This document shows, piece after piece, positions 1-64,000 of a DNA stretch of 64,000 nt; the first letter of the stretch is position 1; each line of letters begins with the position of its first letter. The DNA is from Tribonema minus. Its lineage: Eukaryota; Sar; Xanthophyceae; Tribonematales; Tribonemataceae. The position numbers and the translations under genes were made by a program. The notes under the pieces are model-generated. The model did not search any database. It was not told the DNA's origin and worked only from the letters and a program-made list of their open reading frames with translations. Location: NCBI GenBank assembly GCA_017506865.1, contig JAFCMP010000536.1, positions 558,001 to 622,000 on the forward strand, read 5' to 3'.

Positions 1-3000
1 AATGTGATGCTTGACTGCGTGTTTGGCTGTACATATATCTCTGCTCTGCGTTATCATCAATCTGCTCCAGTGTTTTGGTGACAGTTGCACCATACCTGTT
101 GAAGTCATCAGCATCAGTACAAAACCGGGTTTAAAGAGATGTGCCACACATATATACTTGAAGTACGTAGAGGTTGCCGTCATGAGGCGCACCTGAAAGT
201 GCGACACACGCGTGCAACCAACCTCAACAAGAACCTTGTTGACTAAGCATTAAACGGGCATGGGCCGCCACAGACACATTTGTGAAGCAAGCAAATATCA
301 ACCAAACCGATTTGCCTCGCGTTTGAATCAAAAAGGTCTGAAAGATGCTATGCAATCTGACCATGTAGGCTCAGGCGAAAAATAACCGACACCGAAACCA
401 GAAGCAGTCGTCGGTGGTGACAATGCAACAAAGCTTGCAGCGTTCCCACCATGCCCACAGCTGTTGCTCAGCGGCGCAAGCGGCGCAGCAGCTGTGCAAT
501 CGTTGCGCATGTCAAGTGCCAAGGCCGCTGCGCCGCGCATGCATGAGGAGCTGTGACATGCAGCATCGGTCTGCGTTCCTGGACGTGCATCAGGGGATTC
601 CATCTTCAGCTGCCTCAAAGGGCATTTCAGAAAACTCTGTTCGGCGAACTGAGCATCATCAGGGCGACCTGAGCATCATCAGATCAGGGCGCAATCTTGG
701 TCTTCGGGTCAAGAAGTCAGAGCGCAGCCTGGGGCTTCGAACAGTAGCACCTCGTGTGGTGGAGATTGGGAGGGCGTGTGTGGTGCTGCAGCATGCTAGA
801 CGCCGTCCCTGTTGTTCAGCTGAGGCTTGAACCAGAGTTGTCCACTACTCAATCTGCGAGAGACACGGAGACAGAGAGGAGAATGGGTGTCAGTCAAACG
901 ACTGCAGACAACAACGCGAGAGGACGGCCGAGGAACAGCATGCACACCCTGCACGATAGCCTCATAAGATCATGATCGGCACCAGAGCTTCTTGAGCCCT
1001 TCTAAGACCCTCAGGATAATCTGGAGTATCTTCATAGGCATCGGCTGCTGGTGGCAAGCCAGATCACATCAGGGTGCAGGCCTACTAGAGAGGAGGGAGG
1101 TCAGTTATCATATACGATCGCTTCATACGTCACTCCCTGGTCGCTTGCGCGATGGCGGGGCGCGTTATCAATAACACGGACCAAGTACATCAGATCTTCA
1201 TCCCTCTCTCCTCTCTCAGGCACATGAATACATCGAAAAAGCAATGATGCAGGTTGCCATCCTCACCTTTCCGTGTGTGGCCAGCGCTGATGGTGCTGAC
1301 GGTGCTGCTGCTGGTATCCAGGTGCATGTTGCACCAGCAGGCGCGCCTCGGCAGCTTTCACATCGTACCAGCCGACGAGGGTGTGGTGACTGGCTCTCTG
1401 CTCCACAGAAAGCGACGCACGCCTCAACAGGAAGTTGGTGCGGAAGTTCGCTCTTGAAGTTCGAAACTTGAAGATTTTGACCTGTTGGCGTTCGCTTGGG
1501 ACATTCGTTGACAGCGGGCCTGTTGCAATCGCGCGGACTGCGAACAATTGGAGCACAGGAGGAAGGGCACGATGCACGTGCTTGGGGCCCTCAGCCAGGG
1601 CGGCATGAATGTGAGTTGAAGCACACTAATTGTCACGTGCCACACCAGGATTTCTATGTTTTTGTGGTGTTACCAACGGACGCTTTAGAATGGTGACACC
1701 GTCTTCAACGCCAAGCTTTGAAGCTGAATCAACCATGGCGACCCAAACATTCAGACTTTTCTTGTTAACGCACACACCAACAACACCTACATCTCATCTA
1801 TGCACAAGTGGTGACAGCTAAATTCTTGTTCAACTCCTGCAGTGCCATTGCGTGCAAGGACCTGCAAACGCTATGTTACACAGTCACCAACCTGCTGCTT
1901 CAGTGATGGTACTATGGGCTCTTGTGTCACCAGGCCACCGTGATATTTTGTCGACGACGTTGTCGTCCTAAGGCTGAAGATGTGCAACATTGCCGCTTGT
2001 GTTCACATTGGCGGCGCCTCATTCCTCTTCAGATGGGATGGCTGCCACCATCCCCAATCAGTACTTTCAGCATTCGCTCATCCTTCCTTGAAGCGGCGTG
2101 CCTTGTGCCTGAAACACCTGGTTTCTTTTTTAAACAACATCTTTCTCAGCGCGACACATGCGCCCAGCCTCAGTTGGTGCTTATGGTGTCAACATCAATG
2201 AATTGTGCTTCATTACGTAGGTGTGCACCTACAAGTGAGCCAGCCACATTTGCACCTGTTCCGAGGGTATCGCGTGCAAGTTCACGCTGGCTGTAAAGCT
2301 TATGGTGCAGTCGTGAGGTTTGCGAATCCACCAACAACTTCGCAAGGCTCACACCCCAATGGAGCAATCTGCCCCAATGTCATGGCAGGGATCCAATGTT
2401 GGCCGTGCGTGTGAGCACGCATTGCTGCTTATGAGCACTGCTTCCACCCTCTTCATTGACAGCAACAGACTGCGCTGCCGACTGCAGGAAAGTGCATGTG
2501 TTGACACCATGCTTCTCCGCTGCGAAGCGCCACTGGCGCCACCTTCTGCCGCAGCAACAGTTGAAGTTGTCATCTGCAACAGCACTCGCACCTGCCGCGA
2601 CACGCATGCATTTGCTGAGAGGAGAACCTAGAGTTGAAGTTGACTAAATGTAACGGCACAGCAGTTTGAGGCAGTATCACCACTCACATCTGCCACTGCT
2701 TTGCCTGTGCACTTAGGTCGCGGACATGGCGTGGGGCATGAACTGCCGCGAGGAGGACCTGGAGTTGAAGTTGATGATTGCATTGCATCAGCAAACAACA
2801 CAATAAGGCAGCAGCGCTCACAACTGCCGCTGCCTCACCCGCACGCTCAGGTCGCGGACATGGCGTTCGGCATGAAGTGCCGCGAGGAGGACCTGGAGTT
2901 GAAGTTGACAAAGTCAATGACTGCAAACTAGCGAATGCTCTTCAAATCATCACAACAACACGTCAAGGCAGCAGCGCTCATACCTGCCACTGCCTCACCC

Positions 3001-3151
3001 GCACACTCAGGTGGCGGACATGGCGTGGGGGATGAAGTGTCGCGAGGAGGACCTGAAGTTGAAGTCAGTGAAGTTCAATTACTACTAACTATCTAATACC
3101 TCTTTTGAAAGGCAGCGCTCACACCTGCCACTGCCTCACCTGCACATTCAG
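1..3151. other. 5' flank with decayed sequence, no supported gene
   Basis: No exon chain can be supported before 3152. Short open stretches occur, for example near 1254-1457 and 1980-2201 on the plus strand. They lack recognisable domains, are interrupted in every frame, and read like decayed mobile-element coding sequence. The right end (2690-3070) holds partial copies of the next gene's exon start and is listed separately. A non-coding or coding 5' exon of the Orai-like gene could lie here unseen. Confidence 0.4.
2716..3070 (+). repeat. Three upstream echoes of the Orai-like gene's first recognised exon
   Basis: Copies of the start of the exon at 3152 lie at about 2716-2771, 2851-2906 and 3011-3066. 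Each is preceded by an AG acceptor and a stretch similar to the genuine intron end. Each reads VADMAxGMxCREEDL like the real exon, then breaks off at the same codon region into TTGAAGTTGA-like sequence. A more degraded copy may lie near 2600-2645. The copies are tandem and in the same orientation as the gene. Confidence 0.85.
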
Positions 3152-6100
3152 GTTGCGGACATGGCGTGGGGCATGAAGTGCCGCGAGGAAGACCTGGAGT
3201 ACAGGCGGCTAGAGATGGAGTGGCGCAAGCACGATCTGTGGTGCCGGTGGGTGGATGAGCAGTGGCACGCCATGGAGGAGAAGGCCAAGCAGCTGGAACA
3301 GGTACTTCAAGAGGGTTGTGACGCGCCCCTTGTTGAAGTGCGCCTTGTTGAAGCCTGCGTTGGGCGCACAGAAAGTCTGATGGCGCTCGTCCAACCGCAT
3401 GACTGTGTAGTGTATGCGTATGGTACAGTGATTCATTGAGTGTATTAGTGTCAGTTTTGGCCATGTGGGGAGTATGAGGTGGCACCCCACTAACACCAAG
3501 TTTCAAGCGCATTGTATCTTCTGGTTTCCTCAATGCATTGTGTGTGCGCTATCTCAGGGACTAGTTGGATGTGCGACTGAATGCATCATCACTGCCCCGT
3601 AACTGCCATCGCTGATGCGACAGACTGCTGTTGAAGCTGGTCTCTGGTGGTCGCTGGGGGGTGTTCACCAAAGTTCAACTGCAGTTCAGAAGAGGACGCA
3701 TGTACTGCGAAGTACGCGACTTCAACGCCACGACACATTGACACCAGAAGGCTAGCGTGTGATGCCCTTGAGTCAGCAATTCCATCGTGACTGAAATGTT
3801 GCGAGCCATCTTGATGCCTGTGCAATCACATGACATGCGTGAATGCAGCTGGGACATTTAACCAAAACCTGCATTTATCGCATGTTGTCAAGACGGGCTG
3901 AGGCCAGTCCAGCAATACCCATTGTCACGCTCGTGTGCGCGCGCTCACGACCCATGTATCTGGACGCTCGCTGTAGGCGCACCGACTGGCGTGCAGACAG
4001 GTCATGCACGCTCCCTGCACGCTGCATCAGCCTCTCCTAAGGCGGCAGTCCCAAGTCACAGGCAACCGGCAGCAAAGAGCACTGCGCTCTTGCTAGCTTG
4101 TCCTTCACCTGCTGCGCACCGCCGCTCGCCGGCGGCTGCGCTTCACGTTCCAGCTAACTTCAACCCCTACCCCCCCGCTCGCTGCCGCCAACTTCAACAG
4201 ATTGCTCAGCTGAGCGCGCTGCTGGCGGGCTTCGCTCTCGTCGCCATGTGCCAGATGCAGATACCGGACGGCGTGAATGGCTGGCTGCTGGTCTCCTTCG
4301 GCACCGTAACCGCCGCCGCGGTGGGGGTACCGCTGATAGCGATGCTCAGCTCGACGCTGGTGCTGGTCGCCGTCATCAAGTACGACCCGAAGGTCGCGGT
4401 GAACGCCGCGTGCCCGGACTTTGGCACGTTCTGGTCGACGCACTGCGAGGCGGACTGGCGGCTGTCGTTCCGCTGCTTCAACATCAGTGAGTCAGAGTTG
4501 CTGAGTCATGGTCCGTGAGTCTTGAAGTTGACGCTGCTTGCAGTTTTCGGGTGGGGCCAGTGGTTTGAGGAGAGCTGGCGCCCTGCACTGCTTGGAGTGT
4601 CCTGGAAGTCAGATGCTGCCATGAAGAGACTGCAGTGATAGCATGACCTGAGTGCTGTGGTAGACTTCAGTGCGCTGCTTCAACATCAGTGAGGAGGAGT
4701 GTCCGAGGCGTGACCTGCGAGTCTTGTAGTTGAGGCTACAATTGCCTGACCTTCCCGCCCACGATCTACAAGTACAGGTACCCTTTCCTGGTACAATCAA
4801 CGCTGAGAGAAGTGGCGCATTGTGCAGCTGCAAGTACATTGTTGTGCCCATGTGCCATCATGGACGTGGTGACGCTGGCATGTATGTGAGCCGTGCGCAA
4901 GGGTTTGTGGTTTCAATTAGGGTAAGGATTATGGTTGCCAGAAAGGTACCGCCCCTCTCTTGCCAGTCACGAACTACGTTTTGAACTGCGTCTCAAAACT
5001 GCCTCCCTCTGCTTCAACTTGCACCTTGAAGGGCTGTGAAAAGCGCAGCATTCTAATGCACTTCATCACTCCAACGCTGAGCACGCCACGCACCTGCGTA
5101 CTAACGTCTCAAAGCGCTCACATGGTAGAATTAGGGATAGGACGTTGCCTCGGCAAGCCGAGCACGCTATGATGGTAGAATCGCTTAAATGTCAGAGCTG
5201 CAGAGCCACTACTTACGGATGTGGCTGCAGGACGTCAGGACTCAGCTGGGATAATACAAACCTGCGTCGAAGACGATTGAGCCAACGTGCTCAGCACACA
5301 GGGGTGGCTGCAGGGCTTGCTCAACAGCAAGCAGGTGCAACTTGCAGTCAGCATATAGGTTTAGGGCTACATGGTGCTCATAATGCGCTTGAGCTGACCT
5401 CTGCGCACGTGCTTCGCCCCCTTGCCCCCTGATTCCCCCTATGCGGCACAGGCATTGCGCTCTTCCTTATGGTGCTTGGGCAGGTGAGACCGCGCACGAA
5501 ACCATGCAGGTAGGTATGTATGTTCATGTATGCTGTGGTTAGCGTTAGGGTTAGGTGTTAGGGTTCAGATTGGGATTGGGCAGGCGAGACTGCGCACAAA
5601 GAACAACATAGCTTGCACGTATAGTACATATATGTATGCAGCAAAAGTAGGTTGCAGAGAACGAGGCTGATCAACCTTCATGAAGGGCCAGGCGCTGGGG
5701 GTCTTCATTCGTACATTTGTTCATGCGTTCGTTCAATGCAATTCATTCATGCATTCATGGGCTGGCAAGTTTAATGGGGCTGGACATGTGGAGATTGCCA
5801 CCGCAGTCACACGTTGCCAGGGGCGAACGCTAGTCCCCGATCTGAACGTCGCTTCGAGCGGCGCATGCCCTGTGCGCTGCAAGCACCTCAGCGGCGGCAC
5901 AGGCCCTTGCCATGACCATGTGCAAACAACGCTTTCTTTTTTGTGTCAATCGAGGTGCTCCAGGGGATATATGGCAATCAAATTTGATCAGTTCTTGATA
6001 TGTGTTTCATAATGAGTGCGGGTCAGGGTTACGATCAGTCTAGGGTTAGTACGCACGTTTCAATCATGATCCCGTGGCAGCCATATGTGTGATGGTGTCG

Positions 6101-8031
6101 CTAGACTTACGTAGTGACGGTATGTAACTGTATGAAAAATGCGTGTTCAGGTATCCGCGCTACTGTGTGCACCGATGATACTCGGCAGAGCTGTGTGAAT
6201 CAGCGCAGTACTAGGGAATCCCAAGAATCTGCCCTGATGCACGGGTGAGGGCTGGGGTTAGATTTAGGGTTATGGCTAGGGTTAGCCTCCTTCATCTTGC
6301 ACGGATTACTGGCGATTGAGTCGAGGAATGTTACTGCCGCCCAGACTCTCCTCTGCCACCCCGCCTGCAATTAGGGTTAGGGTAGGGGCAGGTGAGCTGG
6401 ACCCAGTACTGTGCGCTTCAACCTATAGCTCCACGTCACCCGTTGTGTGCGCCTGAGGCCACCTGGCTAACCCTAACCCTAACCCTAGCCAGCTGGACCC
6501 ACTTCATTGCCCACCAAAGTACAGAGCAGTTTGGCCGAGGCCCGTCCTGAGCACTGCCACACCATCTGTTGCTCACTTCCATCCCCCTCCCCTCACTTCA
6601 CTCTACTCGTTTGCACAACTCATAAGCCCGACTCATGACTCGTGGCTGATGACTTCGGGTCGGCTGGACCCAGTTCATTGCGACCAGAACTACGTGGCAT
6701 CGTCGACTCCAGCCTTCTTGACGCATGAATGATCACTCATGACTTGTGAGTCAGGTCGGCTGGATCCAGTTCTTTGCGCACCAGGACTACGTCGCATTGT
6801 TGGCCCAGCGTGACTGACAATCATGCCCAATCATACCCATGACTCGCGACTCATGACTCAGGTGGGCTGGATCCAGTTCTTTGCGCACCAGAACTACGTC
6901 GCGTCGTCGACGCTGGTCACCGTCGTCGCCGTCGCCTCGGCCATGGTCTACTTCCTGTACACGTACCGCAAGTGGAGCACATTTTTGGCGACAATGACGC
7001 ACGAGGCGGCGCCGCTGCCGCCTGTCAACGGCAGCTCCAGGCAAGCACCGCGACGCGTATCTGTGCCAGCCCGCCCATGTGCAACAACGACGCGCTTCAG
7101 TTGATGTGGGGCACCGGCGCTGCTTATATCAAGTACAAAGCGGCATGCAATTCTCTGACATCGCATGTATATACACACGTACCGCAAGTGGAGCACGGTC
7201 CTGGCGACCATGACGCACGAGGCTGCGCCGCTGCCGCCCGCTAACGGCAGCTCCAGGCAAGCAGTGCAATAGTTAGTGGGGAGCCCCCCCCTGCAATCAT
7301 GCGCGCTTTAATAGAAGGTCATTTGGGGTTCAGATGCTGCTCATGTCAAGTTACGACTTGGCATACTTCAGAAATACATTTTGTCGATGTCGTATGTATA
7401 TACACATGACGCACGAGGCGGCGCCCGCGACGCCCGCCAACGGCAGCTTCAGGCAAGCACCGCAACGTATCTGTGCCAGCTTGCCCATTTGCATTCACAC
7501 ACGCTTCCGTGGAAGGCTATTTGGGGCACCGATGCTGCTTGTCTCAAGTACGAATTGATACTCAAATTTGCCAATATTGTGTGTATATATACACATGACG
7601 CACGAGGTGGTGCCCCCGCCGCCCGCCAACGGCAGCGCCAGGCAAGCACTGCTTTGCATGTCTGTGACGGGTGTGGTGGTGCATGAGCAATGTGTTGTCA
7701 CCCACTCAAGCCATTGTAAATCTGACACTTGCTCCGAGCAGTGCCATGCAGCGCCCTGCAAGGAACTATCGCTGTTTTACTGCCTGAGTGTTTACACCAC
7801 CAGATCCATTAACGCGCATGGCCATGCGTTCGTGTGAACAGGTACGCCAGGGGGGGCGATGAGGAGGCAGGGGGGCTCGAGGGTGCCCCCCCCTACACGG
7901 GGACGGAAACCCCCCTGAATGGGGACGCATCAGCGCACCCCCCCGCCTGTCGGCCACCGCTTCTAGCGGGCAGACAACGAGGGGGGGCGTCATGGCGCGC
8001 GGCGTGGAGCGCAGGGAGTCTGAGTCATTGA
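3152..8031 (+). CDS. Orai-like (CRAC) calcium channel subunit
   Basis: Predicted four-pass plasma-membrane channel subunit of the Orai family, whose known role is store-operated Ca2+ entry. Exons: 3152-3301, 4201-4486, 5452-5483, 6862-7040, 7842-8031, stop 8029-8031; all junctions keep frame. From the ATG at 3161 the protein is 275 residues, normal for Orai. The first exon is a charged cytosolic helix (RRLEMEW, EEKAKQLEQ). The second carries TM1 (LSALLAGFALVAMCQMQI) and TM2 (GVPLIAMLSSTLVLVAVI). The third and fourth give TM3 and TM4 (FHQNY loop region, then STLVTVVAVASAMVYFLY). In TM1 the glutamate that forms the human selectivity filter (VAMVEVQ) aligns with glutamine (VAMCQMQ). The fourth intron has a GC donor. 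The exon at 3152 starts after an AG, so 3161 may not be the true start. Family assignment rests on TM1/TM2/TM4 similarity recalled from known Orai proteins. Confidence 0.7.
4671..4694 (+). repeat. Downstream echo of Orai-like exon 2 end
   Basis: The last bases of the exon ending at 4486 and its GTGAG donor (CGCTGCTTCAACATCA followed by GTGAGG) recur here about 200 bases into the following intron. Confidence 0.8.
6392..6802 (+). repeat. Four upstream echoes of the Orai-like TM3/TM4 exon
   Basis: Partial copies of the exon start at 6862 lie at about 6392-6415, 6488-6520, 6658-6710 and 6755-6802. They keep the GWxQFFAHQ-coding sequence to differing extents (GGCTGGATCCAGTTC or GGCTGGACCCAGTTC) and mostly follow an AG or a TCAG-like acceptor. 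Copies nearer the true exon are longer and less diverged. Telomere-type repeats (6371-6390, 6467-6487) lie between them. Confidence 0.85.
6467..6487. repeat. Interstitial telomere-type repeat (CCCTAA)
   Basis: About three tandem CCCTAA units lie inside an intron of the Orai-like gene. Related TTAGGG-type runs lie at 5541-5567, 6252-6288 and 6371-6390. Confidence 0.9.
7173..7646 (+). repeat. Three downstream echoes of the Orai-like TM4 exon end
   Basis: The end of the exon at 6862-7040, coding for THEAAPLPPVNGSS, recurs at about 7173-7259, 7388-7454 and 7587-7646. Every copy keeps the same AG/GCAAGC junction, so the non-canonical GC donor has been duplicated with the exon edge. Confidence 0.9.
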
Positions 8032-15642: not shown

Positions 15643-15673
<31 letters not shown>

Positions 15674-32439: not shown

Positions 32440-35400
32440 CTAACCCTGCTGCAACGTCTTGGCGACCATCTCGTAGGGCACGACCTTGATCTCGCGGATG
32501 CCGCCGAGCGTCGTGTTGAGCTTAATAATGGCCTTCTTGCTTCCGGAGGCGGCGCCGACGCGCGAGACGGCGACCTCCTCGCCGATCATGCGCCCCGTGC
32601 GGCCCTTGTCGGGGCCCGCCACCAGCATGATGCTGTCGCGAATCTGTCGCGATAGGGGGCGGTGAGTTGATGTGGGTCAGCGGGACTTCAAGTATGCGAG
32701 CGGTTGAAAGAACTATCTGGAAAAACACTCGTTCGAAAAAACAGCCACTTCCCAAGTACTTGGGTGCATCATCAGAGTGGCGCAGGCCCGCCACCAGCAT
32801 GATGCTGTCGATGATATGTCGCGACGCAGTGAGTGATAGGGTAGAAGTCAGCAGCGCAACCAGAACTTCAAGTGAGAAGGCAGAACGAAGTTCAATAGTC
32901 CTTTGAAGTGTACGCATTGTTGGTGATCATGCGCCCCGTGCGGCGCTTGTCGGGGCCCGCCACCAGCATGATGCTGTCGCGAATCTGCCGCAATGCGGAG
33001 CGCGCGAGTTTGAAGTGTGTCAGCAAAACTTCAAGTATGCGAGCGGTTGACAACAGTTGACAACATTGATGGTGTGGGCGGGGCCGCCCGCTATCGTGAC
33101 GATGTTGCTGATCTGGCGCATGCAGAGCACCAGCGATGTGGTGGTCAACACAGCGCAAGCAGAACTTCAAGTGTGCGCGGTGTTGGAAGAAGAAGCCTTG
33201 GCTCAAGTACATCATTGGGTGGCGTCGCTCGCCACCAGCATTTTCGCATAAACAACATTTGTAAGGCGTAGCAGCGCTCGACCGCAGCGCAGCAGTGCTC
33301 AGCACGGCGTGCTGCTGCACGGACCGATCTAGGAGGTCGCGCGCCGGTGGCACAAACAGTACAGTTTCGGTGTAGCAGTGCTCGACAGCACTGAAGCAGC
33401 GCTCAACAGCAGCGCAGCAGCGCTCAACGGTATGATGCTGCTGCACACTGACCTTGGGAGGGTCGCGCGTCGGCGGCACCAACAGTGAATATGTGTGTAC
33501 AGCATAGCGCGCTCATCAGCAGCGCAGCAGTGCTCAGCGTGGTATGCTGCAGCAACCTTGAAAGGGTCGTGCGCCGGCAGCACAAACAGTTATAGTTGTC
33601 AAGCGAAGCAGCGCTCAAAAGCAGCGCAGCAGCGCAAAACAGTATGATGCCGCTGCACACCGACCTTAGGGGGGTCACGCGCCGGCGGCACGAAGACCAG
33701 CGTGGAGTCGTCCGTCCCCTTGAAGTACTTTTCCGTGCTGGTGACGGGGTCGTAGGCGTCGTACAGGTCGCCGGCCTTGAGGTAGCGGTCCAGCGCCACG
33801 CTCATTGCGGCGAACGCGCCCTCAGCCTCCTGCGTGTTCCTGAAAAAAACGGGGTGCATGGCAAAGTGCGCAGGTGAGTTGTGACTTGAAGTTACAAGTT
33901 GAGGTAGCGGTCCAGCGCCACGCTCATCGCGGCGAACGCGCCCTCTGCCTCCTACGTGTTCCTGACGGTGGGCGTGCAAGGCAATATATATTAGGCTGCT
34001 TGTTCTACAGGAGTCGACTTGAAGTAACAGGTCGAAAGTAGCGCTGGACCACGACTTGAAGTAAGTAATTGAAGTAGAGGTCCGGCGCCACGCTCATCGC
34101 AGCGGACGCGCCCTCTGCCTCCTGCGTGTTCCTGATCTCAGGGGGGACAACGCGGAGTTCGTTAACCCCTGCATCATGAGGTGTTCTTGGAGTGCGTCAG
34201 GTAAGGCGCTTGACGTGAAAAGTTGAAGTAGCGGTCAGCGCCACGCTCATGGCGGCGAACGCGCTGTGACTTGAAGTTACAAGTTGAGGTAGCGATCCAG
34301 CGCCACGCTCACGGCGGCGAACGCGCCCTCTACCTCCTGCGTGTTCCTGATCTCAGGGGTTGTAGGGCGCAGTGCATAAACGCACACATTGTGAGGTAAA
34401 CGTCGGAATTACGTTAGCTAACACATTGTGAGGTAAGTGTCGGAATAACGTTAGCTTTCAACAAGGTGACTTCAAGTAGGAAGTTGAAGTAGCGGTCCAG
34501 ACCACGCTCATCGCGGCGAACGCACCCTCTGCCTCCTGTGTGTTCCTGACCATGGCAGTGCAAATCGCAATGCATCACATGAGCTTGTCGAAAACCGGCT
34601 CCTGAGCTCCAGCGCACGAGGGCCATTGCAGGCTCTCGGAGACAGAGCAGGGCAGGTAGGTATTGAATAAATGTGGTACATGTCCTCCGCGCACCAGTGC
34701 ACTCGCTGCGGCTGCCGCCTATCTCGCCTGTCGCAATGGTGCCGTCTACGCTGCAGCAGCTCGTGCTATACGACGCTTCTGCCACCGTCGCTACAAACTC
34801 CCGCGCGGCGCCCTCGAGGCTGCCCCCCCACAGCTGCCCTCGTGCAGCAGGCCGTCCTCCTTGTGTGCGCTCCTCTCAACTTCAAGTTGGACACAAACTT
34901 CAAACGTGGTGGTTCGGCTGTGACGTGCCGAGCGCGGCAGGCCTCTGTGGTGAACTTCAACTGCAGGTTCAAAGTTCCACTCCAAGTTAAAGCCAACATT
35001 GAACTCTTGCAACAAGTTGCTTTCGGCTGCGACGCGCCGAGCGGCAGTGCTTGCTGACGCGCCGCGCTCTGCGCGCGCACCGCGGCGGCGGCAGCAGCTT
35101 CAACTTTGTGCTCAAGTTGAAGCTCCACATCGGCATCCCACGCACGTCCCCCTCCCCCGCTGCAGTCTGCCTGCGCTCCGCCTCAATGCACCCCTCAGCA
35201 GCAGCGCTCCGCAGCAGAGCGGCGCCACTCATGAGCGATGCGGCAGCGGTCGCTGCCAGTTCCCTGGCGCATGGCCACAAACAAGCATTGATTGATGTTT
35301 TATGGCCCCACGTAGATAAAGGCCGTGTCTCGCGACCGTTGTCACGCCTGGCGCTGCCGCTTGAGCGCTCACTTTGCATGTGCAGCACGCCTCGACCGCT

Positions 35401-38400
35401 GCACGGCGCCAGTTCACTACCTTCTCTTTTCCAGAACGGCTCAAATTAGATTTACAAAAGCACCAGTGTGATTGCGTTGAGCGCTTCCTTCGCGTCTGCA
35501 GCGCGCCTCAAGCGCTCCACGGCGCCTGTTCACCAGCTTCTCTTTTTCAAACTGCTCAAAGGAGAGTTACAATACCATGTACTGCTCCGTTAGATGTACA
35601 ATAGCACCACGGTGAGTGTGTATTTGAGCGCTCATTTTGCGTCTGCAGCACGCCTCAACCGCTCCATGGCGTCTGTTCACCACCTCAGATACACGATCAG
35701 TGCTCGTCTGGCATGTGTTTAGAAGCAGCCAACTGGGCGTAGCTTTAGGATGACGGTTACGGTGAGTGAGGTAACTGGATGGGCGCTCACTTTGCATCTG
35801 CAGCATGCCTCAACCGCCCCACGAGCACCTGTTTACCACCTATTTTCAGGACAGCCTAAATTCGACTTGGGCGCCTGCTTGGAACCATTGAATATCAGGG
35901 GTTTCCTACTTTTAAAGCAGCTCACTTTGCGTCTGCAGCACGCCTCAACCGCTCCACGGCGCCAAACAGCCGCCCCACCTCGTACCGCAGCGCCACGCGC
36001 GAGTTCTTGGCCACGGGCTGCACGTCAGCAAAGTCGAAGTTGCGCATCATGTCCACTTGTGTCAGAATCATCGCTTTGTTTCTGGGCGTAAGATGCGCTA
36101 TGTGGGTGATCAACATCGAGTTGCCTGTGCGCTGTCACATGCGCTGCGCGCGTCGCGCGCGGACGGCGGCGTCAGGCGGATGCGCAACATCAAACTTGAA
36201 GTCGTGCATCATGTTCTCTGTCACCAATCATCGCGTTGGCTCAGACGAAAGGATGCGCGGCAGCGTCAGGGCGGGTGCGCATAAACAAAGTTGAAGATGT
36301 GCCAAATCACACTTGAAGTTTGCATTTCTGCGGATAGACGCACAACTGCGTCGTGCTGGTTTGGGCGCAAGAAAGCGCAGATGCTCAACGTGAAGCTCGC
36401 TACCAGATGTTCCATTTCATCAGAATATCGCTTTAATGATGTGGGCAGACAGTGCTCATGTACGTGATCACCGTCAAGTTTGCCAGTATTGTCACAAAGT
36501 GACTCAGTGCTCGTTGACCAGCACTCAGTGTGACAGCGCGCGTGACATTAAGATCATGTGGGTATGTATGTATGTACAGGAGCAGCATCCGAACGTGGCG
36601 TATGATGACGCTGTGATGGCGCACAGAGCACTGTCACTCGGAGCGTCACCGTGGGACGCAATGCGTCCAGAAACGTGCGAACTGCAGAAGTTCAACTGTG
36701 GCACAACGACGTGCCCAGCCTTAGCGCCAACCCTCATGCTGAAATGCTGCCTGCAGATGCAGATGCAGTTGACCCCTCCCCCCGCCCCCCCCCCCCCACA
36801 CACACGACTCAGTAAACATTCAAGGTGGGGGGGGTACTGCGCCTGCAACAACACGATAACGAAACAAAGCTGCGCTCCTTGTCATATCGATTCAGCGTCG
36901 CTGATGGTAGCATTTGACATTGTGCCCCCAGGTCAACAAGAATATCCGCGCAACTTCAATTTCAATTGCAACACAAAACCGATGCACTGCGTCGCTACAG
37001 CAGATTTGAGCCCCCAAATTGAACCTCCCTCACTACCGGTAGGTTCTGTGTTGCAGTTGAAGTTTGCAGCAGCACCTCCGCACGCACTGTGCCATGCTGC
37101 CAAGCGCGACAGGCACCCCAATGTACTAACCTTAACCCAAACCCTAGCCCAAACCCTAACCCTAGATCGTGGCACTCACATCATCGCCGGGAAAGGCCGC
37201 ATCCGTGTACTTGGTGAATACAGGGACGAAGCTCCGGAACGCATTGGGGTAGGTAGCTATCAGCTCCCAGTCCTCCGCGAATATGTCCTGCTGAAGTTCG
37301 TCCAGCAGCTTGGCAGTGCGCCTGAGCTTCTCCCCGAAGCGGTTCTTCATCGCTGCGGGAGTGCGGAACAGCAAGTCAGTGCTCCCCTATCTTCGACATC
37401 AAGTTTGAACTTGAGCTTCTCCCCAAAGCGGTGCTTCATCGCTGCAGGAATGCGGCACAGCGAGCCAGTGCTCCCTATCGTCAACATCAAGTTTGAACTT
37501 GAGATTCTCCCCGAAGCGGTGCTTCATCGCTGCGGGAGTGCGGCACAGCGATTCAGTGCCGCGCTTGAGCATGATGTTGAACTTGTCAGCAGCAGGCGCG
37601 TTGGAAGGTGAGCGGATGGTAGAGAGGTTGCGCAACAGTTTTTCATGATTGAGACGGCCTTTCATAACCACGTGTGCACAATCTCTGTAGAACGTGCGCA
37701 ACCTACCGGAGTGACCCCTCATGCAAAATCGAAACTGGCCCTGTCAGCGTCGGCGGGCATCTTTTGCATTATGATCTCTTTAGGCGCAGGTGTCTCCGTC
37801 CTGCGGAGAGCCAGCCAGCGGTGAGATTGCTCATGCATTGTGACCGCGTGTTGATACTGTACTGACTATGTACCGATCTGAATGGGACGCACTGGCCAGT
37901 TGTTCTGTACCATGCAGTGAACCGTGTGCAGTGAACCGTAAGCTGGACGCGTTGTGTGTAAGCCGTGAACTCCATACGCTGACAGGACATGATGGCTTTG
38001 CGCAAAAGCAACAAGTTTACCTCATGTCATCGCCTGCGAAGGCATTATGCTCGTACACACGCTGTGCGCGATCGTGCATTCGCACTTGATGCTGCATCCA
38101 AGCGCGCTGCCACACACCAGGTGCACGATCGATCTCATGACGCAATCAAAGACGGTTTTCCGGTTGCAGTCGCGTTCTAAGCGACTTGCAGGAAGAAATG
38201 CGTGGTTGAAGATGGAATCGGAGTTCCATTCAGGGCGGTGTTTGCGCTTGCAAGACTCAGTGTTATCCCTTTGACCATGATTGCGCTTGCAATACGTGCC
38301 GCACTTATAACTTGCTGACGAGGCCAGCAGTATGCTCCGTGGACATTGCATCAGCTCATGCACTGACACCCAAAACGTTGTCGCGCACTCGCGTCAGCCA

Positions 38401-53698: not shown

Positions 53699-54807
53699 GT
53701 GTTTGCCGCTCGTGCGACTCCTCCTGGCCTGACCCTGAGATTGCAGTTCAGCTCAGCTCAGACCTCCGACGCCCGCGAGGTATCCGAGGCCTACTGCCTC
53801 ACACGCCCATCATCTATCTGCGTGTACTCTCCCTGGTGCATCAAGCTTGCTGGTGTGCTTGCGAGCTGGCTGACTAACTACTAGGCGTCTCACTCACGCA
53901 GAACCTTTTTATGTGACATCGAATGGATCGAGCTCTTGCCGATGGTTTCGCTTGAAAGGTGAGCAGCTGCCGGTCAGGCCGACACAATCAAGTGCAATCC
54001 GCAATGTGCGAGCTGGCGAGTATGACTGCGTCATCATGAAGCGTAGCGCGTCGTGCTCGCTAGTGAAGCCGTAGTGAAGCCCGAAAAATGCTAAACACGA
54101 CACTGATCTGAAACGAAACGACATTTTTTGAGGGCCTGGAGGAGCGAGGAGAAAGCAAGCAACCGGCACGGCCAACACGTAACTTAGTAGTAGCGCGAGG
54201 CAAGCCAGCAGAATTCTATCCAACACATGCGTGTGAAGGCCGCTGTTGCGACACACGTCCCATCGTGATCACGCAGATTTCATATCCCAGATACTGCATC
54301 ATGATAATCCCGTGTACGGACGGGCCATTTTTAATCCTGCGCGCGCCTGCTGCTGCAGCGGAGGACGGACAGCTCATCCATCGGTGGCGTTGACGGACTT
54401 GGCAAGCATGCTTATCGGCAGCTCCAGCTCTGTCAGCATGGGGCACACGACAAGTCACCAGTTGGCGATATGCAGTGGCAGTGTGTGTTCACCCGCATCT
54501 GCTTTTCGATGTCCTTAGATACGATATATCCAAGGATGAAAAAAAAACTTTTGCAATTCATGCAATTCATGAAGCTGATGTTGTTGTTCGTGGCTACTGG
54601 CGCCACACATCAACTACATACGTGAGCAACCAGCATGGCGATGGTAACTGTGTACATCAAACGTGGGTGTCACCTGCAGTGCCGCAAAGTCTGATTCTGG
54701 AAGCAGTTGCACCTTGGTGCGCGCTTAGGTGTACAGCACATGTATTGGCGGCAGTATGAGCATGCTGCAGCCGCAAGCAACCATCGCGTCTGACCCTCAG
54801 CCTACAT
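53699..54807. other. Intergenic region
   Basis: Probably includes the kinase promoter. No coding exon could be supported on either strand. Confidence 0.4.
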
Positions 54808-55084
54808 GTACACAGGGCGGCGTTTGGGTGGCAGTGGTTGCGACACTTTCAGACTGTCATACGACATGTAGATTCCGTACAGCTAGATGCCAATCATCTG
54901 GGCTTTTTCGCGCCCTGAGCGAGAATTTTAAAATGAAAAGTACACAGTGGCGGCGGCGGCGTTTGAGTGGTTGTCGTTGTGACACTTTAAGACTGTCATA
55001 CGACATGTAGATTCCTTACAGCTAGATGCCAATCATCTGGGCTTTTTCGCGCCCTGAGCGAGAATTAATAAAAAGTACACAGGG
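54808..55084 (+). mobile_element. Two adjacent 3'-tail copies of the retrotransposon at the same GTACACAG target
   Basis: Copy 1 occupies about 54818-54939 and copy 2 about 54948-55074. Both match the full element from the last codons (GGCGGCGTTTG) through the hairpin to the A-rich end. Target repeats read GTACACAGGG at 54808-54817, GTACACAG at 54940-54947 and GTACACAGGG at 55075-55084. The second insertion thus used the duplicated target of the first. Confidence 0.9.
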
Positions 55085-55161: not shown

Positions 55162-58100
55162 TTAGCACCCAAGCGCGTCGTTTGGCGCCAGCACTTCAAC
55201 AGCGGTGCCGTCGGCGGCGGTCTCTACGTGCACCACCGAATGCGGCACCACCGCAGCGGACGACTCCGCCCCGCGCTCGCCGCCCCGTGCCGCCGCCGCA
55301 GCGGCGACGTGCCCTCCTTCAACTTCAACTTCAACCTCTGACGCCTCCTCAGCAGCGCTCGGCGCACCGGCGCCGTCCGCGCTGACAGCAGTTGCATGGC
55401 GGTTGGCAGCGGCCACCGGCACTGCGGCGCTCTCCTCAGGGGGGGCGCGCGCGTGCGCCGCTTGCTGCTGCGGGGGGGCTTTGTTAGGGGGCAGCGCCAT
55501 CTTGGAGGTGAACGCGCGCGCCGCGTCGGGCGACGCGAGCCCCCCTTTGTAAAGGGAGTGGCTCGCCGCGCCGCTCTCCGCCTCGCGGTGCATGGCCTTG
55601 GTGCGCACCTGTGGAAAGAAGAGGGGCAGCATGGGGGGTTAAGGGGGTGGGGGGGGGTGGTGGGGGGGGGGGGCACTGAAGATGACGAATATTTGAAGCT
55701 ACCAGAATTGCTCTTCGCTTCGAAGTGCTTTTTTGTTGTTTCTTGCCAAGGGCGCAAAAGCGCCCAGATGGTGGATGTCAAGCTCGCTGCCGGAATCTGC
55801 ATGCATCTCGTAAAAACGTGAGAGTGCCTCGATGCGCGTTGACGATCACTTCTGATTGATTGATCATCATCGCCAAACGTACCTTGAGAGGTACACATCC
55901 CGAGATGCCATTTGGCGGCGGCGGCGTTTGAGTGGTTGTCGTTGAGATACTTTCAGAAGTCACACGACATGCAGATTCCGTACAGCAGCATCAAGTTAGA
56001 ATCATCTGGGCTTTTTCGCGCCCTGAGCGAGAATTGATGAAAAGTACACATCCGCACACGCACGTGCTCGCTAACGTCCGCTATCAATGGCCATCTCATA
56101 GCAGCGCATCTGCACCTGCCAGTTGTCTTTGGTTCCTGCTGACCTGTATTTCCATGAGCATGTCTGTCGGCAGCCGCACGGTCGTGTGTATGCTGCGGTA
56201 CCCATTGGCCTTGGGAAAGTCGACGTAATTCTTGTAGCGCCCTGCCTGCGGCCACAGCGATAAGACCACGGCATACACCTGTCGTGGCGACGGCAGCAGC
56301 GCGAGGGGCAGCATGAGAAGGGGCTCTTTCTGTGACATTGTACTGGGTTCACAGGCTCAAGAGCTGACAGATCAAACTTTGAAAGAGCTGAAGGTGGGTG
56401 CCAGGTGCCAGCAGCGGCAACATAGGGGGCGAGAGTAGCGGGCCAGTAGAACACGTGTTTGCACTAAAAGCAGCATGGGCTGATGGCTGCCAATCCTCTC
56501 AGCACTTTTAACTTGAAGTACAAGGCAGTAGTGAATAGATCATCATACCTACCTACGGTGGGCACTGCTCGCATCACGCAGCGGGCGGCATGGGCTAAGG
56601 GTTAGGGCTAGGAATGGGGCGTAATGTTACATACCTACCCACACGCTACCTGAGCGATGCTCACCTCGTGCAGCAGCGCGCTGTCCGCGTCGCGCAGCGG
56701 CGGCGGATACGAGTGCAGCGTGTACAGTCTATCCTCCACATCCGGCGGCGGCGCGCGCAGCGCCAGAGCCCCCCCTTTTGGCGCTGCCGCAAGGGGGGCC
56801 GCGCCGCGCGCCGCCGCCGCAGCGGCGGCGGCGGCGGCAGCGCGTTTCCGCTTGGCGCCGCGTGCGCGCTCGGAGCGCTGCCGCGGTGGCATCGAGCGCT
56901 GCTGCTGCGCCTCTATCGCGCGCTGCTGCTGCGCCTCTGGGGGGGAGCGCTGCTGCGCCTCTGTTGTTGAGCGGTGCTGCTGCTGTGCAGCGCCATCCTC
57001 GGCGCACGCGGTGACTGCGGCGGCGGCGGCGGCAAGTTCTACGCGGCGTTGCGCGGGGTGGACGATGATGCGGAGGCCAATCATGTCGTGCACGTCCTGC
57101 GTGATGGCAGCAGCGGCGGCAGCAGCAGGAGGCAGCAGCAAGTAAGCGCCAGGGCCTGGGCTGGTGGCTGCTGCAGAGCAATGATGCAGCCAATGACTCA
57201 TAATTAGAGGGGATGGTTACAGTCGTGCGAGAAACGTTGGCAGCAGCAGCAGCAGCAGCAGCGACGGCAGCAGCAGCAGATCATGGCCAAAGCACACGCT
57301 GGCAGCAGGCGACGCCGTGCGCGCGCGCGCTGCGTGCGCCAACTTCAACAACCAGATGTACAGTTGAAGTTCAAAGCGCCAGACACGACAAACAGGGGCG
57401 CAGTTGAAGTTCAAAGCGCCAAGAATGCGTCAAGTGTACCTCGAGGTTCTTGTTCTGGCGGAACACCTTGCGGAACGTGCTGACGAGCCCTTTGGTGCGG
57501 CCCTGCAGCTCAAAGTGCCGCACGCGACCGTGCAGTGGGGGGTGCGCCTCCAGCGCCACCAGCAGCTGTATTTTGGCGCTGCAGCAGGGGGCAACGGCAG
57601 GGATAAGGTTGTGCTAGTCGCTATGATACGTGCTTTAATTCAGATGCTCTGAAGTACTGTAGTTGCACTTTGATACACCGCGCAAAGGGGGGGGGGCTCC
57701 AGCGCCACCAGCAGCTGCACTTTGGCGCTGCGGCAGTGGACGATGGCAGGGGTGAGGTCATGATAATTACTATATATGCTTTGAAGATTGAATACATGAA
57801 CTTTGAAGTAATTGCGCTGTGATACATGCTTTATGTAATACTTTGAGGCAGACGCACTTTGAAGTATGTAAACAAGCGTAATGCAATTGTGCGCGCACGA
57901 GGCTGGATACACTTTGAAGCAGTTGCACTTTGAAGTACGTTTGGATGCATGTAAACTGCGTGTATAATTGTGCGCGAACGAGGCCAGTCGCTTGCTGCAC
58001 GGCACCGGTCGCTCTGCTGGTGGTACGCACAAGGGTGCTGCATCCAGTCAGAGCGGGGCTTGTAACTTTCTGAGAAACACACTTGGACATCGGGCACACG

Positions 58101-60500
58101 AATGTTGCAGGGTATATGTTTCGGGCGCTGAGGTGTGGGAGCAGCTGTGCAGTCACTGCCTGGCTACTTGATGCTCACTGGATATGCGCAAGTAACACAC
58201 TGACAGTGACGCTGTTTGAACAGGGCACTTCAAGATTGAAGTACCTGTTTAGGAGGATGTGGCCGCGCTGCCACACATCCACGTGCCACTGCGAGACACG
58301 CGCATAGGTCTTGGGGAACAGCGCCTGCCGCAGGTCAAAGTTAGGGTAGGGGTTAGGGTTCCCCAATGCCTGTTGACAATGCGGGTTGACTATGAGCATA
58401 GACAGCGCACAGCTCAGTTCACTTTCTTGGGGAACAGCGCCTGTCGCACGCGTGCTGAACAATGAGTAATGAGTGATGACAATGAGAATAGACAGCGCAC
58501 AGCTCAGCTCATGTTGAGGTTGAGTCCTGTCGGGCACTGACGTGGCCTCTGCATGTTTGCTGCCTGGTTTTCTCAGTGATCACTTCTTCCAGCAACACAT
58601 GCACTAGGCGCGAATCCTGTGTCTGCTTGGGCCCCATGGTCGTCCATCTCTGGCACGGTGGTGAGCTACACGCCCTCAGCGACCACGGATGGACAACCGT
58701 GCAAGCATCAATCAAATTTGCAAGGCACCTCAACAGCAACTGTCTAGCTTATGCCAGCTGAGGCAGGCGGAGCGGCTTGCTGAGGGTTAGGGCTATAATT
58801 AGGGTTACGGTTTGCTTTAGGGCTAGGGTTGGTGCTGCAGCAAGCAATAGGTGACTGACTGCCTTATCTGCGCCTCAGAGGCACCAGTTTGGGATACAGG
58901 GATGGTGCTTTGTTTACCCGACGCATGGCACGGCCGTTGCACCACACGCAAATAACACCACTTCAACTTCAACCCGTACGCCGCAACAATCTACAGGAAG
59001 ACGTATCGCCCATGTATACCTCAACACATTGGCCGCTGCGCACCGAGGACTCTACTCAATGACTCATGACTCACCTTGTACCCCAGCTCCTCCAGCTCGC
59101 GGAACGCCGAGCCGAGTCCCAGCGCATTTGAAACTGGCACGTATAACTGCAACGCCTCCAGTGCCAGGTGATGGCGCAAGTGCGCGGGCATGACCCCGCC
59201 GCCCCTGCCGTTGAAGGCGGTTACGTCGGTTACGTCGCCCATGCCGCGGAGGCGCTGCAGCAGCTGAGCCATGTGCACGACGACGGCCCTCACATCCCGC
59301 GATCTGCACGGCGTGCAGCGTGTAAATGTGTGAGTGATTTGCAAATGCATGCTGCACAGCGCGTGTGCTGTGTTCAGGTGCTTGAGTACACATGCACCAA
59401 GACTAGACTACAAGGTACTTCAAGAGTGTAAAGTACTTCAAGTATGTGGAGTATGTGGAAAACTTCACACATTACGCTGAGGCCGCGTCAGCCATGTGGC
59501 ATTATTCACATGATGTGAATAATGCCAACCCACGATGTGTGCGGCAGTTCGCGCGGTCCTCTTGTACACAACGCACGCGAAGTGCCTTGTAGGGTTTGCC
59601 CCTTTGCACACCCTACAAGCGCACAAACACTCATCGGCAGCATGTGCAATGTGTTGTCGCGCGCTGCGCAACGCTATGTACGCTTTACCAAGGCAGAGAC
59701 CCGTTCTGTACAGCCCACTTGCTGATGCAATACTTGCGTTGAGTGAAGCCCTAACCCTTACCCTAATTCTTTTGGAGGTCGCTCAAGAGCAGCCAACTGT
59801 GGCAAAGGAGGGCCGTGACGTGGTAAACAACTGGGGTATAGAACAATCCTAACAATAGCCCGGGCGAGTCAGCCAACCTGTGCACCAGAAACTCCCGCAA
59901 CAGTCGGCTGTTGTGGTCACCCTGGTCACCTCGGTGTCACCAAGAGAAGACCCCTTCTTTATGACCCTTTCTGCTAATCAAGTGCTGGTGGGAGCATGAA
60001 GCCATATTCCTTACTGCGCTCAAAAGCAGTCAAATGAGGAAAAGTGGGAAAAGCGTGTATATTGAACAGCCCGAATACTGTGCGGACGGCGCACACACTG
60101 TGAGCGAGATATTCCCGCATTAGTCGACTGTTGTGGTCAGGTGTACATATATTTATAACAACTCTAATAATGTTTGGTCGGTGCACAAACCTGTGCACCA
60201 GGTATACTCATGCAGCAGCCGACTGTTGCAGTCGGGTGTATATATATATGACCTCCAATAATGTTAATGTTTGGTCGGCGAACACACCTGTGAACCAGAT
60301 ATTCGCGCAACAGTCGGCTGTTGTGGTCATCCAGGTCCAGTATGGGCCGCACGCCAGTTGAGCGCTGTATCACCATCTGACTCGCTGAGCTGTGTGGCAG
60401 CAGCAGCAGCAGCGGCAGCAGCAGCAGCGGCGGCGGCATGAGCAGCGGCGGCGGCAGCAGCGGTGGCAGCAGCGGTGATGGCGGCAGCGGCGGTGGCGGC

Positions 60501-60535
<35 letters not shown>

Positions 60536-62551: not shown

Positions 62552-62582
<31 letters not shown>

Positions 62583-64000
62583 TCATCGCCGCTGCTGCTC
62601 GCGCCGGCGGCGGCGGCGGTGCTGCGCCATCGGCTGCCGCGCCGCGCGCCGCCTGCGCCGCCGCCGCTGCTGCTGCCGGCGCGTCTGCGGCGCGCGCCGC
62701 CGCCGCTGCTGCCGGTGTCGCGGCCGCGGAGGCGCGCGGGGCTGAGCGCTGCTGCTGCGGCGCCGCGGCGCGCGCTGCCCTCGTACCACCGCACAAACTC
62801 CTCGAACGTCACCTGCAAGAGCGGTATTACGAGGCTTGGTTCGTGAAGCAGTGAGTATGGATTGAAGTTGAGTGAGCCTATCATTTCAGGCAAGGTCACA
62901 GCGGCGGGTAGATCAGCTGGGGTAAGGTCCGATGGGCTGGTAGCTTCCATGGGGGGGCTCAGCCGCCGCCAGCATTGGCAGCGCACGCACACTGGACATG
63001 GCCACGCTGTTATAGGGTACAACGAAAACCTGCTACATACAAGAGAGTACAGCAGTGACTGTTCCGAAGGCTGTCTGTCTCATCGCTGCTGGCGTGCACA
63101 GAATCACATGTTACACTACCGCGCTCAGCTAGGATGAGGGTGACGACTCACGTCGCCATTGGAGTCAAAGTCCATATCTGCAAAGATCTTCTTAAGGCTC
63201 AGCGCCCAATGGTTATAGGGTTTGAAGTTGGGGTCAACTTCATTTGCAGCGTGCAAAACTCACCTCGCCATTAGAATCAAAGTCCATCTCTGCGAAGATC
63301 TTCTTGGGGCTCAGCACGCCGTCCCGCCGTGGGTGCTCGCGCAGCGCCGCCATCGCCGCCAGCACTATCATCGCGCGCTTCACCCGCGCCTGCGCATGTG
63401 CGAAATATGTGTCGTTCATGCATGCTGAAATGAATGCAAGTGAACACTCCACGAGCACATTGCTCAGCACAAGCGCTGCGCGAACGCGCGCACACACACA
63501 CATGGTGCACACTGTGAATTGTGCCGCGTCGGCGACTGCACAACTTCAACTTTGTGCGCCACGCGGCGCTTCAAGCTACGCACTGAGTCAATGATGTGCC
63601 TACTGCCTTAACCAGCCACACTGTTCCATTCCAGTTCTCCAACTTCTTCTGAGCTGCCCCATCCCACTCGTGCGCCACTGAAACTAAAACACAGAGCTGC
63701 AATGGTGGCTGCAGCTAAACACACTCGAAGCCAGGCAGTGACATCTATGTGTTGCGTTTCCAGACAGAGTCTCCGTTTTCTTATGATGCTCCCGCGATCA
63801 GAGCTTGACAAAATGCTGGTACGTCAGCAAAGTTGAAGTTGAAGCTGAAGTTAAGTGCTGGGCGACACATATCACACACGACACTGACCTGCCCCTCGCT
63901 CCCCAGGTACTCCAGCGCGCCCCCCTTCCTGAGCTCGCGCCACATGGCGCTGATGAGCCGCTGGAACCGAAACGGAGCGCTGCTGAGGTCATATGCCCCC
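55162..64000 (-). CDS. CRSH-like: Calcium-type RelA/SpoT homologue: EF-hand, inactive HD, (p)ppGpp synthetase (5' end beyond window)
   Basis: Predicted plastid (p)ppGpp synthetase; 881 residues visible. Exons: 64000-63889, 63389-63264, 62812-62180, 61604-61393, 60389-60288, 59303-59075, 58324-58245, 57578-57440, 57096-56665, 56278-56144, 55608-55162 (stop 55164-55162); every phase agrees. The second and third exons join into a canonical EF-hand loop DFDSNGEVTFEE. A Gly/Ala-rich linker follows. The HD domain keeps HSLEVVKILVGMEADADTI, but the HD pair is CS (AALACSS) and the later KLADRLHN aspartate region reads HMAQLLQR, so hydrolase activity is probably lost. Synthetase motifs are intact: GRTKGLVSTFRKVF, HDMIGLRIIV, NYVDFPKANGYRSIHTTV, MEIQVRTKAMH. 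A Gln/Ala-rich insert of about 100 residues splits the synthetase domain. Plant CRSH proteins have EF-hands at the C-terminus; here it is N-terminal. Confidence 0.9.
55685..55800 (-). mobile_element. Possible old reverse-oriented tail of a related retroelement
   Basis: Read on the minus strand it has GGGCGCTTTTGCGCCC, a hairpin analogous to the element's, followed by AAGAAACAACAAAAAA. Similarity to the element's 3' UTR upstream of the hairpin is weak, and no target duplication was found. Confidence 0.35.
55891..56053 (+). mobile_element. Third 3'-tail copy of the retrotransposon, in an intron of the RelA/SpoT gene
   Basis: The body, 55901-56043, begins at the codons for PEMPFGGGG near the element's stop and runs to its A-rich end. 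It is flanked by GTACACATCC at 55891-55900 and 56044-56053. It is antisense to the host gene and lies in the last intron. Confidence 0.92.
57695..57732 (-). repeat. Upstream echo of the RelA/SpoT exon at 57578
   Basis: CCGCAG/CGCCAAAGTGCAGCTG matches the exon start CTGCAG/CGCCAAAATACAGCTG and continues through LLVALE codons before diverging. Confidence 0.9.
58339..58362. repeat. Interstitial telomere-type repeat
   Basis: TTAGGGTAGGGGTTAGGGTT lies directly upstream, in the sense of transcription, of the exon at 58324. Another degenerate run is at 58788-58830, and one at 59745-59768. Confidence 0.85.
58422..58445 (-). repeat. Upstream echo of the RelA/SpoT exon at 58324
   Basis: GACAG/GCGCTGTTCCCCAAGA repeats the exon start (ALFPK codons) with an intact acceptor, about 115 bases upstream in transcription. 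Confidence 0.9.
59874..60236 (-). repeat. Three downstream echoes of the RelA/SpoT exon ending HNSRLLREYLVH
   Basis: The end of the exon finishing at 60288 recurs at about 60189-60236, 60104-60140 and 59874-59922. Each keeps CACAG at the exon edge; following bases are GTTTGT, TGTGTG (donor lost) and GTTGGC. Confidence 0.92.
60395..60560. repeat. CAG/GGC microsatellite upstream of a RelA/SpoT exon
   Basis: An interrupted GCA/GGC triplet array directly abuts the acceptor of the exon at 60389. On the transcribed strand it gives CTG/GCC repeats in place of a usual pyrimidine tract. Ser/Gly and poly-Leu frames through it are artefacts. Confidence 0.9.
63143..63200 (-). repeat. Downstream echo of the EF-hand half exon
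   Basis: The end of the exon finishing at 63264 is repeated with a perfect GTGAGT donor and codes for KKIFADMDFDSNGD, still a good first half of an EF-hand loop. An upstream acceptor is not obvious. Confidence 0.9.

Follow-up and report, generated by a model that had tools for sequence, protein, structure and literature searches.

Tandem duplication across splice junctions as the probable origin of exon-edge copies in the introns of Tribonema minus

Introns in a 64-kb stretch of the genome of the xanthophyte Tribonema minus (contig JAFCMP010000536.1, positions 558,001 to 622,000; hereafter the window) carry truncated copies of the exon edges that border them, together with the adjoining splice site. 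These exon-edge copies are real and extend beyond the window, and they are in all likelihood fossils of local tandem duplications across a working splice junction that were later expanded into arrays. This reading is based on the observed direct tandem geometry of the copies, their one-sidedness, their decay at the neutral rate and their spread over a genome sample. The window is part of a 1.9-Mb contig in an assembly of 158 Mb and 554 contigs, and 313 kb were analysed in total, window included. Gene models were drawn from protein profiles and codon usage and from visual inspection of the sequence.

Results

Self-comparison of the window, a check proposed by an earlier sequence-only reading of this DNA, shows local repeat pairs in direct orientation only. 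Specifically, 73 direct versus 0 inverted pairs lie less than 3 kb apart, and beyond 3 kb there are 10 direct pairs and 1 inverted pair. By reading, copies were placed at 15 exon edges on both strands, comprising 8 acceptors and 7 donors (Table 1); the sequence-only reading had counted at least 25 edges in seven genes, and these counts were not reproduced. Copies were further asked to align with at least 8 bases on each side of the splice junction. Such a junction-aligned copy on the predicted side, upstream of an exon start or downstream of an exon end, is present at 12 of the 15 edges (7 of 8 acceptors and 5 of 7 donors), one of which also has a single wrong-side match when the low-complexity filter is off.

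The same arrangement is found outside the window. A genome profile search returned 45 proteasome and 132 kinesin exon matches, from which 11 multi-exon loci (5 proteasome and 6 kinesin) with 40 exons anchored by hidden Markov models (HMMs) were picked for having several exon matches only, before the sequence of any of them was seen. Around these exons lie 47 predicted-side copies, 26 upstream copies of 5′ parts and 21 downstream copies of 3′ parts, together with 1 wrong-side copy (E = 0.001) and 1 inverted copy. At least one copy accompanies 23 of the 40 anchored exons, and none was found at one three-exon locus (L039). Additionally, 84 strong coding segments were taken ab initio from the window and five other 40-kb blocks (six regions) with a codon-usage score trained on the HMM-anchored exons. 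They yielded 58 predicted-side copies at 31 edges, evenly divided between 5′ and 3′ parts (29 each), and no wrong-side or inverted ones; 44 of these copies lie outside the window.

When anchored exons and ab initio segments, which come from regions that do not overlap, are pooled, 105 of 106 direct copies are on the side expected from tandem duplication. The junction-aligned copies comprise 57 on the predicted side (33 acceptor and 24 donor) and 1 on the wrong side. Rule-obeying copies occur in 16 separate stretches, namely 10 of the 11 outside loci and all 6 ab initio regions. In line with this, whole-locus self-comparison of six outside loci gives 47 direct versus 5 weak inverted pairs, and four of the five other blocks contain 14–39 direct versus 0–2 inverted local pairs. 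In a control with copies planted at random on either side, recovery was complete on the right side (42 of 42) and nearly so on the wrong side (39 of 42); wrong-side copies would therefore be seen. The sequence-only reading had held that copies in equal number on the wrong side would speak against it, and the genome sample holds 1 such copy among 106. Its one-sided placement is thereby confirmed, on both strands in the window and also in the outside loci and blocks. That exon starts are copied only upstream and exon ends only downstream holds as a rule, but it is not a separate discovery, because tandem duplication across one junction can leave an intact exon no other way. Taken together, direct orientation, head-to-tail spacing and sidedness support the serial tandem duplication that had been proposed.

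Growth of introns by these copies is also supported. We examined 20 introns between exons that are adjacent in the protein profile, with edges trimmed by eye. Exon-edge families cover 5040 of their 17390 bp (29%) and intron-only families cover 845 bp, and older copies may be past recognition. Repeat families are present in 14 of the 20 introns; 16 of these families include an exon edge (8 left, 8 right), 6 have no such contact and none joins both neighbouring exons. Because only one side of an exon-derived pair decays, such copies stay recognisable for longer, so simulated random duplication was given this detection bias. The mean simulated share of exon-edge families is 0.44–0.66 versus 0.73 observed. 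Without an edge boost, none of 75 replicates in one simulation set and 2 of 100 in another attained a base ratio as high as the observed 6 to 1; with boosts of 4–8 fold, 23 of 75 did. Across 264 kb, a coding edge belongs to 37 of 55 families versus 16.9 expected by circular shift, a figure that carries the same detection bias.

The copies also reach only a limited distance into the exon. At 57 exon edges, the nearest copy extends at most 93 bp into the exon, save one row of 164 bp (L036 exon 2), where the HMM match is over-extended into the intron; a row with an offset of 1723 is spurious. An exonic reach above 105 bp thus occurs in 1 of 57 rows, and truly in none, versus 13.9 expected from uniform breakpoints. 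Over the 58 ab initio copies, the exonic part measures 21–100 bp (median 56), with the lower bound set by detection, in coding segments of up to 732 bp. This points either to breaks restricted to the junction or to selection against longer copies; random duplication alone is insufficient for this limit.

Pure random placement fits poorly in the simulation, the circular shift and the reach alike. It is accordingly conceivable, albeit rather doubtful, that duplication is targeted, with splice junctions acting as hot spots (for example, through transcription-linked nicks or R-loops) and not merely filtered by selection. Under such targeting, breaks would tentatively lie no more than about 100 bp from the junction in the exon and up to a few hundred in the intron, and each event would lengthen the intron by about 70–330 bp. 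The excess of exon-edge over other families, the rare attainment of the observed base ratio by unboosted replicates, its more frequent attainment under edge boosts, the circular-shift excess and the short reach all favour targeting. On the other hand, very short ancestral introns give the observed family share in up to 9 of 25 random replicates, the reach limit could reflect selection against longer, more exon-like copies, intron-only events are undercounted because families overlapping old arrays were merged, and the circular-shift control is itself biased by detection.

The divergence of the copies shows how they have aged. In 41 copies of anchored exons, mismatches to the exon affect 54 of 712 first codon positions (7.6%), 60 of 717 second positions (8.4%) and 133 of 700 third positions (19.0%). 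In the 30 copies with enough intronic sequence, 467 of 2347 intronic sites differ (19.9%) as compared with 154 of 1480 exonic sites (10.4%), and in 26 of the 30 the exon-derived portion has diverged less than the intronic one. Divergence of about 0.08 at first and second positions versus 0.19–0.20 at neutral sites comes close to one half, as expected when constraint acts on the exon alone. Half the neutral divergence at constrained positions, together with full divergence at third positions and in the intron, means that the copy is free and the exon constrained. Frame-shifting indels occur in the exonic part of 11 of the 41 copies. The copies are thus old, unconstrained and decaying at the neutral rate. 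Coding alternative exons were rejected as an explanation, since the copies have no codon constraint of their own and an exonic reach of at most about 100 bp.

In the junction-aligned copies, the splice dinucleotides have been retained to about the same degree as the sequence around them, or to a slightly greater one. The acceptor AG is present in 30 of 33 copies, and donor copies have GT in 17 of 24 and GC in 4 of 24, two of the four GC copies deriving from an exon that itself has a GC donor. The earlier claim of decoy splice sites is only half supported: the dinucleotides persist, and any use of them as splice sites would be putative. It is improbable that the copies are functional alternative or decoy splice sites held by selection to tune splicing. 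Retention of AG and of GT or GC (21 of 24) is slightly above the square of exon-side identity (0.898 and 0.809), but this excess is small and units of one array share ancestry; moreover, each aligned copy holds one exon edge only, and the frame shifts and neutral-rate decay argue against function. As a separate observation, GC donors are found at a real exon end (7040-7041) and in echo copies (L036 1782 and 1961), and GC-AG introns may be common in this genome.

Many edges carry arrays. Two or more copies are present at 14 of the 31 ab initio edges, and the offsets along arrays are steady, for example 179, 355, 512, 681, 831 or 170, 315, 465, 643. The nearest-copy offsets at the 31 edges range from 66 to 332 (median 172). 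In the outside loci, several copies of one exon share the same end base, which implies that, once the first duplication had occurred, entire units were multiplied together with their junction. A genome-wide search with 574 bases of the array at 33880..34563, a single unit with simple repeats and very common words skipped, found no match outside its own locus. It is very improbable that introners or another mobile element carried these splice sites into genes. The introns are indeed long and repeat-rich, and a TTGAAGT motif is widely enriched, but the copies are private to each exon, the one searched unit has no match elsewhere, on which ground the mobile element was rejected, repeat pairs in the window are mostly local and less often far (73 versus 11), and TTGAAGT lies near the truncation point in 5 of 47 copies, close to its 5% background. 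Equally hard to credit is an assembly artefact, in which mis-joined reads or collapsed haplotypes duplicate exon edges, as this predicts near-identical, codon-blind copies, whereas the observed ones diverge by 10–20% with a codon pattern and recur in 16 separate stretches.

Table 1. Exons of the window and the intronic copies of their edges. Upstream and downstream are in gene sense.
Feature	Position	Strand	Basis and remarks
Real exon, 5′ edge echoed three times upstream	3152..3301	+	Reading; AG kept in 3/3 copies
Upstream array, acceptor and truncated exon start	2613..3060	+	Self-comparison 2613-3059 / 2744-3200
Exonic parts of array 2613..3060	~2717-2764, 2851-2898, 3011-3052	+	By eye; includes 2716, the start in the sequence-only reading
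Orai-like channel exon, donor GT at 4487	4201..4486	+	Edges by eye; surrounding open reading frame matches Pfam PF07856, E 7e-18
Downstream copy of Orai-like exon end with donor	4673..4737	+	Self-comparison, junction alignment
Real exon echoed on both sides, donor GC at 7041	6862..7040	+	Reading, alignment
Two upstream copies, 5′ edge of exon 6862..7040	6631..6795	+	AG in one, GG in the other
Three downstream copies, 3′ edge of exon 6862..7040	7175..7666	+	GC donor read in 3/3; 2 aligned across donor
Real exon echoed on both sides	29616..29775	-	Edges by eye; aligned copies: acceptor 3, donor 1
Three upstream copies, acceptor edge of exon 29616..29775	29801..30226	-	Self-comparison, alignment
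Downstream copy, donor edge of exon 29616..29775	29374..29523	-	Self-comparison, alignment
Real terminal exon, acceptor AG at 32645-32644	32441..32643	-	Reading
Two upstream copies, 5′ edge of exon 32441..32643	32785..33050	-	AG in one, AT in the other
Real exon echoed on both sides	33665..33839	-	Reading, ab initio copy table
Upstream array, 5′ edge of exon 33665..33839	33880..34563	-	Four copies, further partial ones by eye; 0 passed the stricter junction-alignment test
Downstream array, 3′ edge of exon 33665..33839	33259..33586	-	Three copies across donor: GT, GT, AT
Exon with donor GT at 35925	35926..36040 (only donor end placed)	-	By eye
Downstream array, 3′ edge of exon 35926..36040	35361..35868	-	Self-comparison; 0 copies passed junction alignment
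Real exon, far end approximate	37186..37353	-	Reading, ab initio copy table
Two upstream copies, 5′ edge of exon 37186..37353, 88-bp period	37412..37559	-	AG kept in 2/2
Real exon, acceptor AG at 57580-57579	57440..57578	-	By eye
Upstream copy, 5′ edge of exon 57440..57578, AG kept	57677..57782	-	Alignment; edge also has one wrong-side match
Real exon	58245..58324	-	By eye
Upstream copy, 5′ edge of exon 58245..58324, AG kept	58468..58511	-	Self-comparison, alignment
Exon end, donor GT at 60287	60288..60347 (only donor end placed)	-	Reading
Downstream array, 3′ edge of exon 60288..60347	59876..60228	-	Three copies by eye, two aligned across donor
Exon reading like an EF-hand repeat, donor at 63263, 5′ end approximate	63264..63390	-	By eye
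Downstream copy, 3′ edge of exon 63264..63390	63146..63203	-	Self-comparison; failed junction-alignment test

Other features were noted in the window and the genome sample. A kinase gene at 52042-53752 has no repeat pair in the self-comparison of the window. Three copies of a repeat of about 131 bp (54816-55082 and 55920-56050) flank a coding-looking segment to which the exon-edge rule is not obviously applicable. The motif TTGAAGT/ACTTCAA, usually within (C/G)TTGAAGT(T/A), occurs 93 times in the window, and TTGAAGTTGA with up to one mismatch occurs there 58 times versus 2.4 by chance. The TTGAAGT motif is densest around 2561-3333, 33886-34900, 41875-42017 and 57342-57930, is enriched in the other blocks too and is clustered (73 neighbour pairs within 60 bp versus about 16 expected). 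In the 11 loci it is commoner outside than inside anchored exons (1.26 versus 0.57 per kb), with no wider consensus. As it sits at the truncation points of several window arrays, it was considered as a target site or terminal repeat and rejected as a general cause; in the outside loci, 2 of 26 acceptor copies and 3 of 21 donor copies have it close to the truncation, against a background of about 5%.

Telomere-like TTAGGG or CCCTAA stretches lie in introns at 5530-6490, 29310-29340, 29795-29945, 37126-37164 and 58780-58840 and in the introns of L037; they are enriched in the genome sample and are perhaps scars of break repair. An open reading frame of 1786 codons (45174-50534) contains a reverse transcriptase domain (PF00078, E 2e-10) and is probably a retroelement of non-LTR (long terminal repeat) type, the type being a guess.

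The genome contains 92 matches to the light-harvesting domain, many of them partial as if split by introns. One light-harvesting complex (LHC) gene (L007 1231-2145) has two LHC matches in one frame, and its best Protein Data Bank (PDB) matches by score are the very long LHCI chains of entry 9vfj, perhaps polyprotein antennae. The best matches of two LHC proteins are to what we take to be cryptophyte and Porphyridium-type antenna chains. A search for phycoerythrin alpha, a family of cryptophytes, drew no match in the genome, and the control genomes gave none either. Two RuBisCO large subunit fragments (L004 and L005), each with an in-frame stop, lie on 2-Mb contigs and are probably plastid DNA inserted in the nucleus; 21 residues of the L004 fragment match red-type enzymes best. 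On these matches the source was classed no more narrowly than as an alga whose plastid is of the red type.

Discussion

We propose that the copies arose by tandem duplication across working splice junctions. In this process, a stretch of about 70–330 bp, made up of intron and roughly 20–100 bp of exon, would be duplicated head to tail, the first duplication perhaps arising through break-and-fill-in repair as described for small tandem duplications (PMC8355091). When an acceptor is crossed, the truncated upstream copy would become intron and the downstream copy would stay joined to the remainder of the exon; a crossed donor would give the mirror image. Selection would act as a filter, and the one-sided rule would follow because only such outcomes keep the protein intact and so persist. 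Unequal exchange or slippage between homologous units may then produce arrays of near-constant period and a longer intron, whose copies would decay neutrally with their splice dinucleotides mostly retained. Exon definition, in which exons are recognised as units, would let intact-looking copied splice sites be tolerated. If the shortest intron were chosen instead, the copied sites would win and wreck the message; the persistence of the copies therefore suggests that exons may be recognised as units in this genome.

Several observations weigh against this account as a complete one. Inverted repeats occur in places: block C223 (C223:300001-340000, L032-L035) has 18 inverted local pairs besides 44 direct ones, and 2 inverted matches lie within the 20-intron sample, which shows that repeats of other kinds are present as well. 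Random placement fits poorly with the apparent excess of exon edges and with the limited exonic reach. When microhomology was looked for, the breakpoints of 11 young tandem pairs proved too decayed for a repair signature, with anything between 16 intervening bases and 14 bp of overlap at their junctions. Finally, the age gradient along arrays is weak. The earlier claim that the nearest copies are the least diverged and the longest survives as a tendency only: greater divergence of the farther copy is seen in 20 of 30 pairs for anchored exons and 29 of 44 for ab initio segments, and that copy is the shorter one in 17 of 26 and 16 of 29, respectively. Counted per ab initio edge, 8 of 14 have a nearest copy of higher identity than the copy after it.

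Intron growth is usually attributed to transposons. Because a copy decays freely and its exon is held still, the arrays described here record the growth of introns as internal clocks. Several questions thus come within reach of testing, namely how splicing passes over spare sites about 100 bases away, whether exon definition permits this, and whether DNA breaks cluster at splice junctions. Should targeting be true, introns would grow outward from exon edges as a ratchet, since a single geometry makes the event harmless and splicing by exon definition passes over the spare sites, and intron length would be set largely by duplication and its decay.

Several known systems resemble the exon-edge copies in part. 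Duplicated (mutually exclusive) exons differ in that whole-exon copies with both splice sites are not seen here. Introners likewise reshape introns genome-wide, but their families spread between genes (PMC9860276, PMC7789003), whereas each set of exon-edge copies belongs to a single exon. Short direct repeats (4-30 bp) close to splice sites, which have been read as insertion scars (PMC11782384), also lie around intron borders; the copies described here, in contrast, comprise about 20–100 bp of exon plus an intron stretch, are one-sided and often form arrays. The accessible part of a study of Amorphochlora, a very intron-rich chlorarachniophyte, makes no mention of such copies (PMC12730881).

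Closer in mechanism are the small tandem duplications that arise when breaks with complementary overhangs undergo fill-in synthesis and are then joined end to end (PMC8355091). They are likewise direct and limited in size, but as far as the available text goes they are not tied to splice junctions, whereas here fossils reach at most about 100 bp into the exon. In the AGGT model of tandem genomic duplication, duplication of exonic sequence with AGGT gives rise to a new intron (PMC3443670). It shares with our account a tandem duplication inside a gene that is neutralised by splicing, but its duplicated segment is exonic only; here, the copies carry an existing splice site plus intron sequence, upstream of AG or downstream of GT.

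The sequence-only reading knew of no named process that matches. This has to be amended, as a single boundary-crossing case is published: the potato RdRp gene reportedly underwent one tandem duplication across an intron–exon boundary (Ma, Lan and Niu 2016, PMC4974935). For genome-wide exon-edge copying as a mode of intron growth, we found no published account in the open-access literature, and to that extent the earlier statement holds. The potato duplication carries the branch site, polypyrimidine tract and 3′ splice site, and in our 57 junction-aligned copies the unit similarly holds intron, splice site and part of an exon. That case, however, was a single one that yielded a new intron and an inserted exon piece. 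In T. minus, tens of junctions are involved, often with arrays, the truncated copy is wholly intronic by the predicted gene models, and the duplications appear to lengthen an existing intron.

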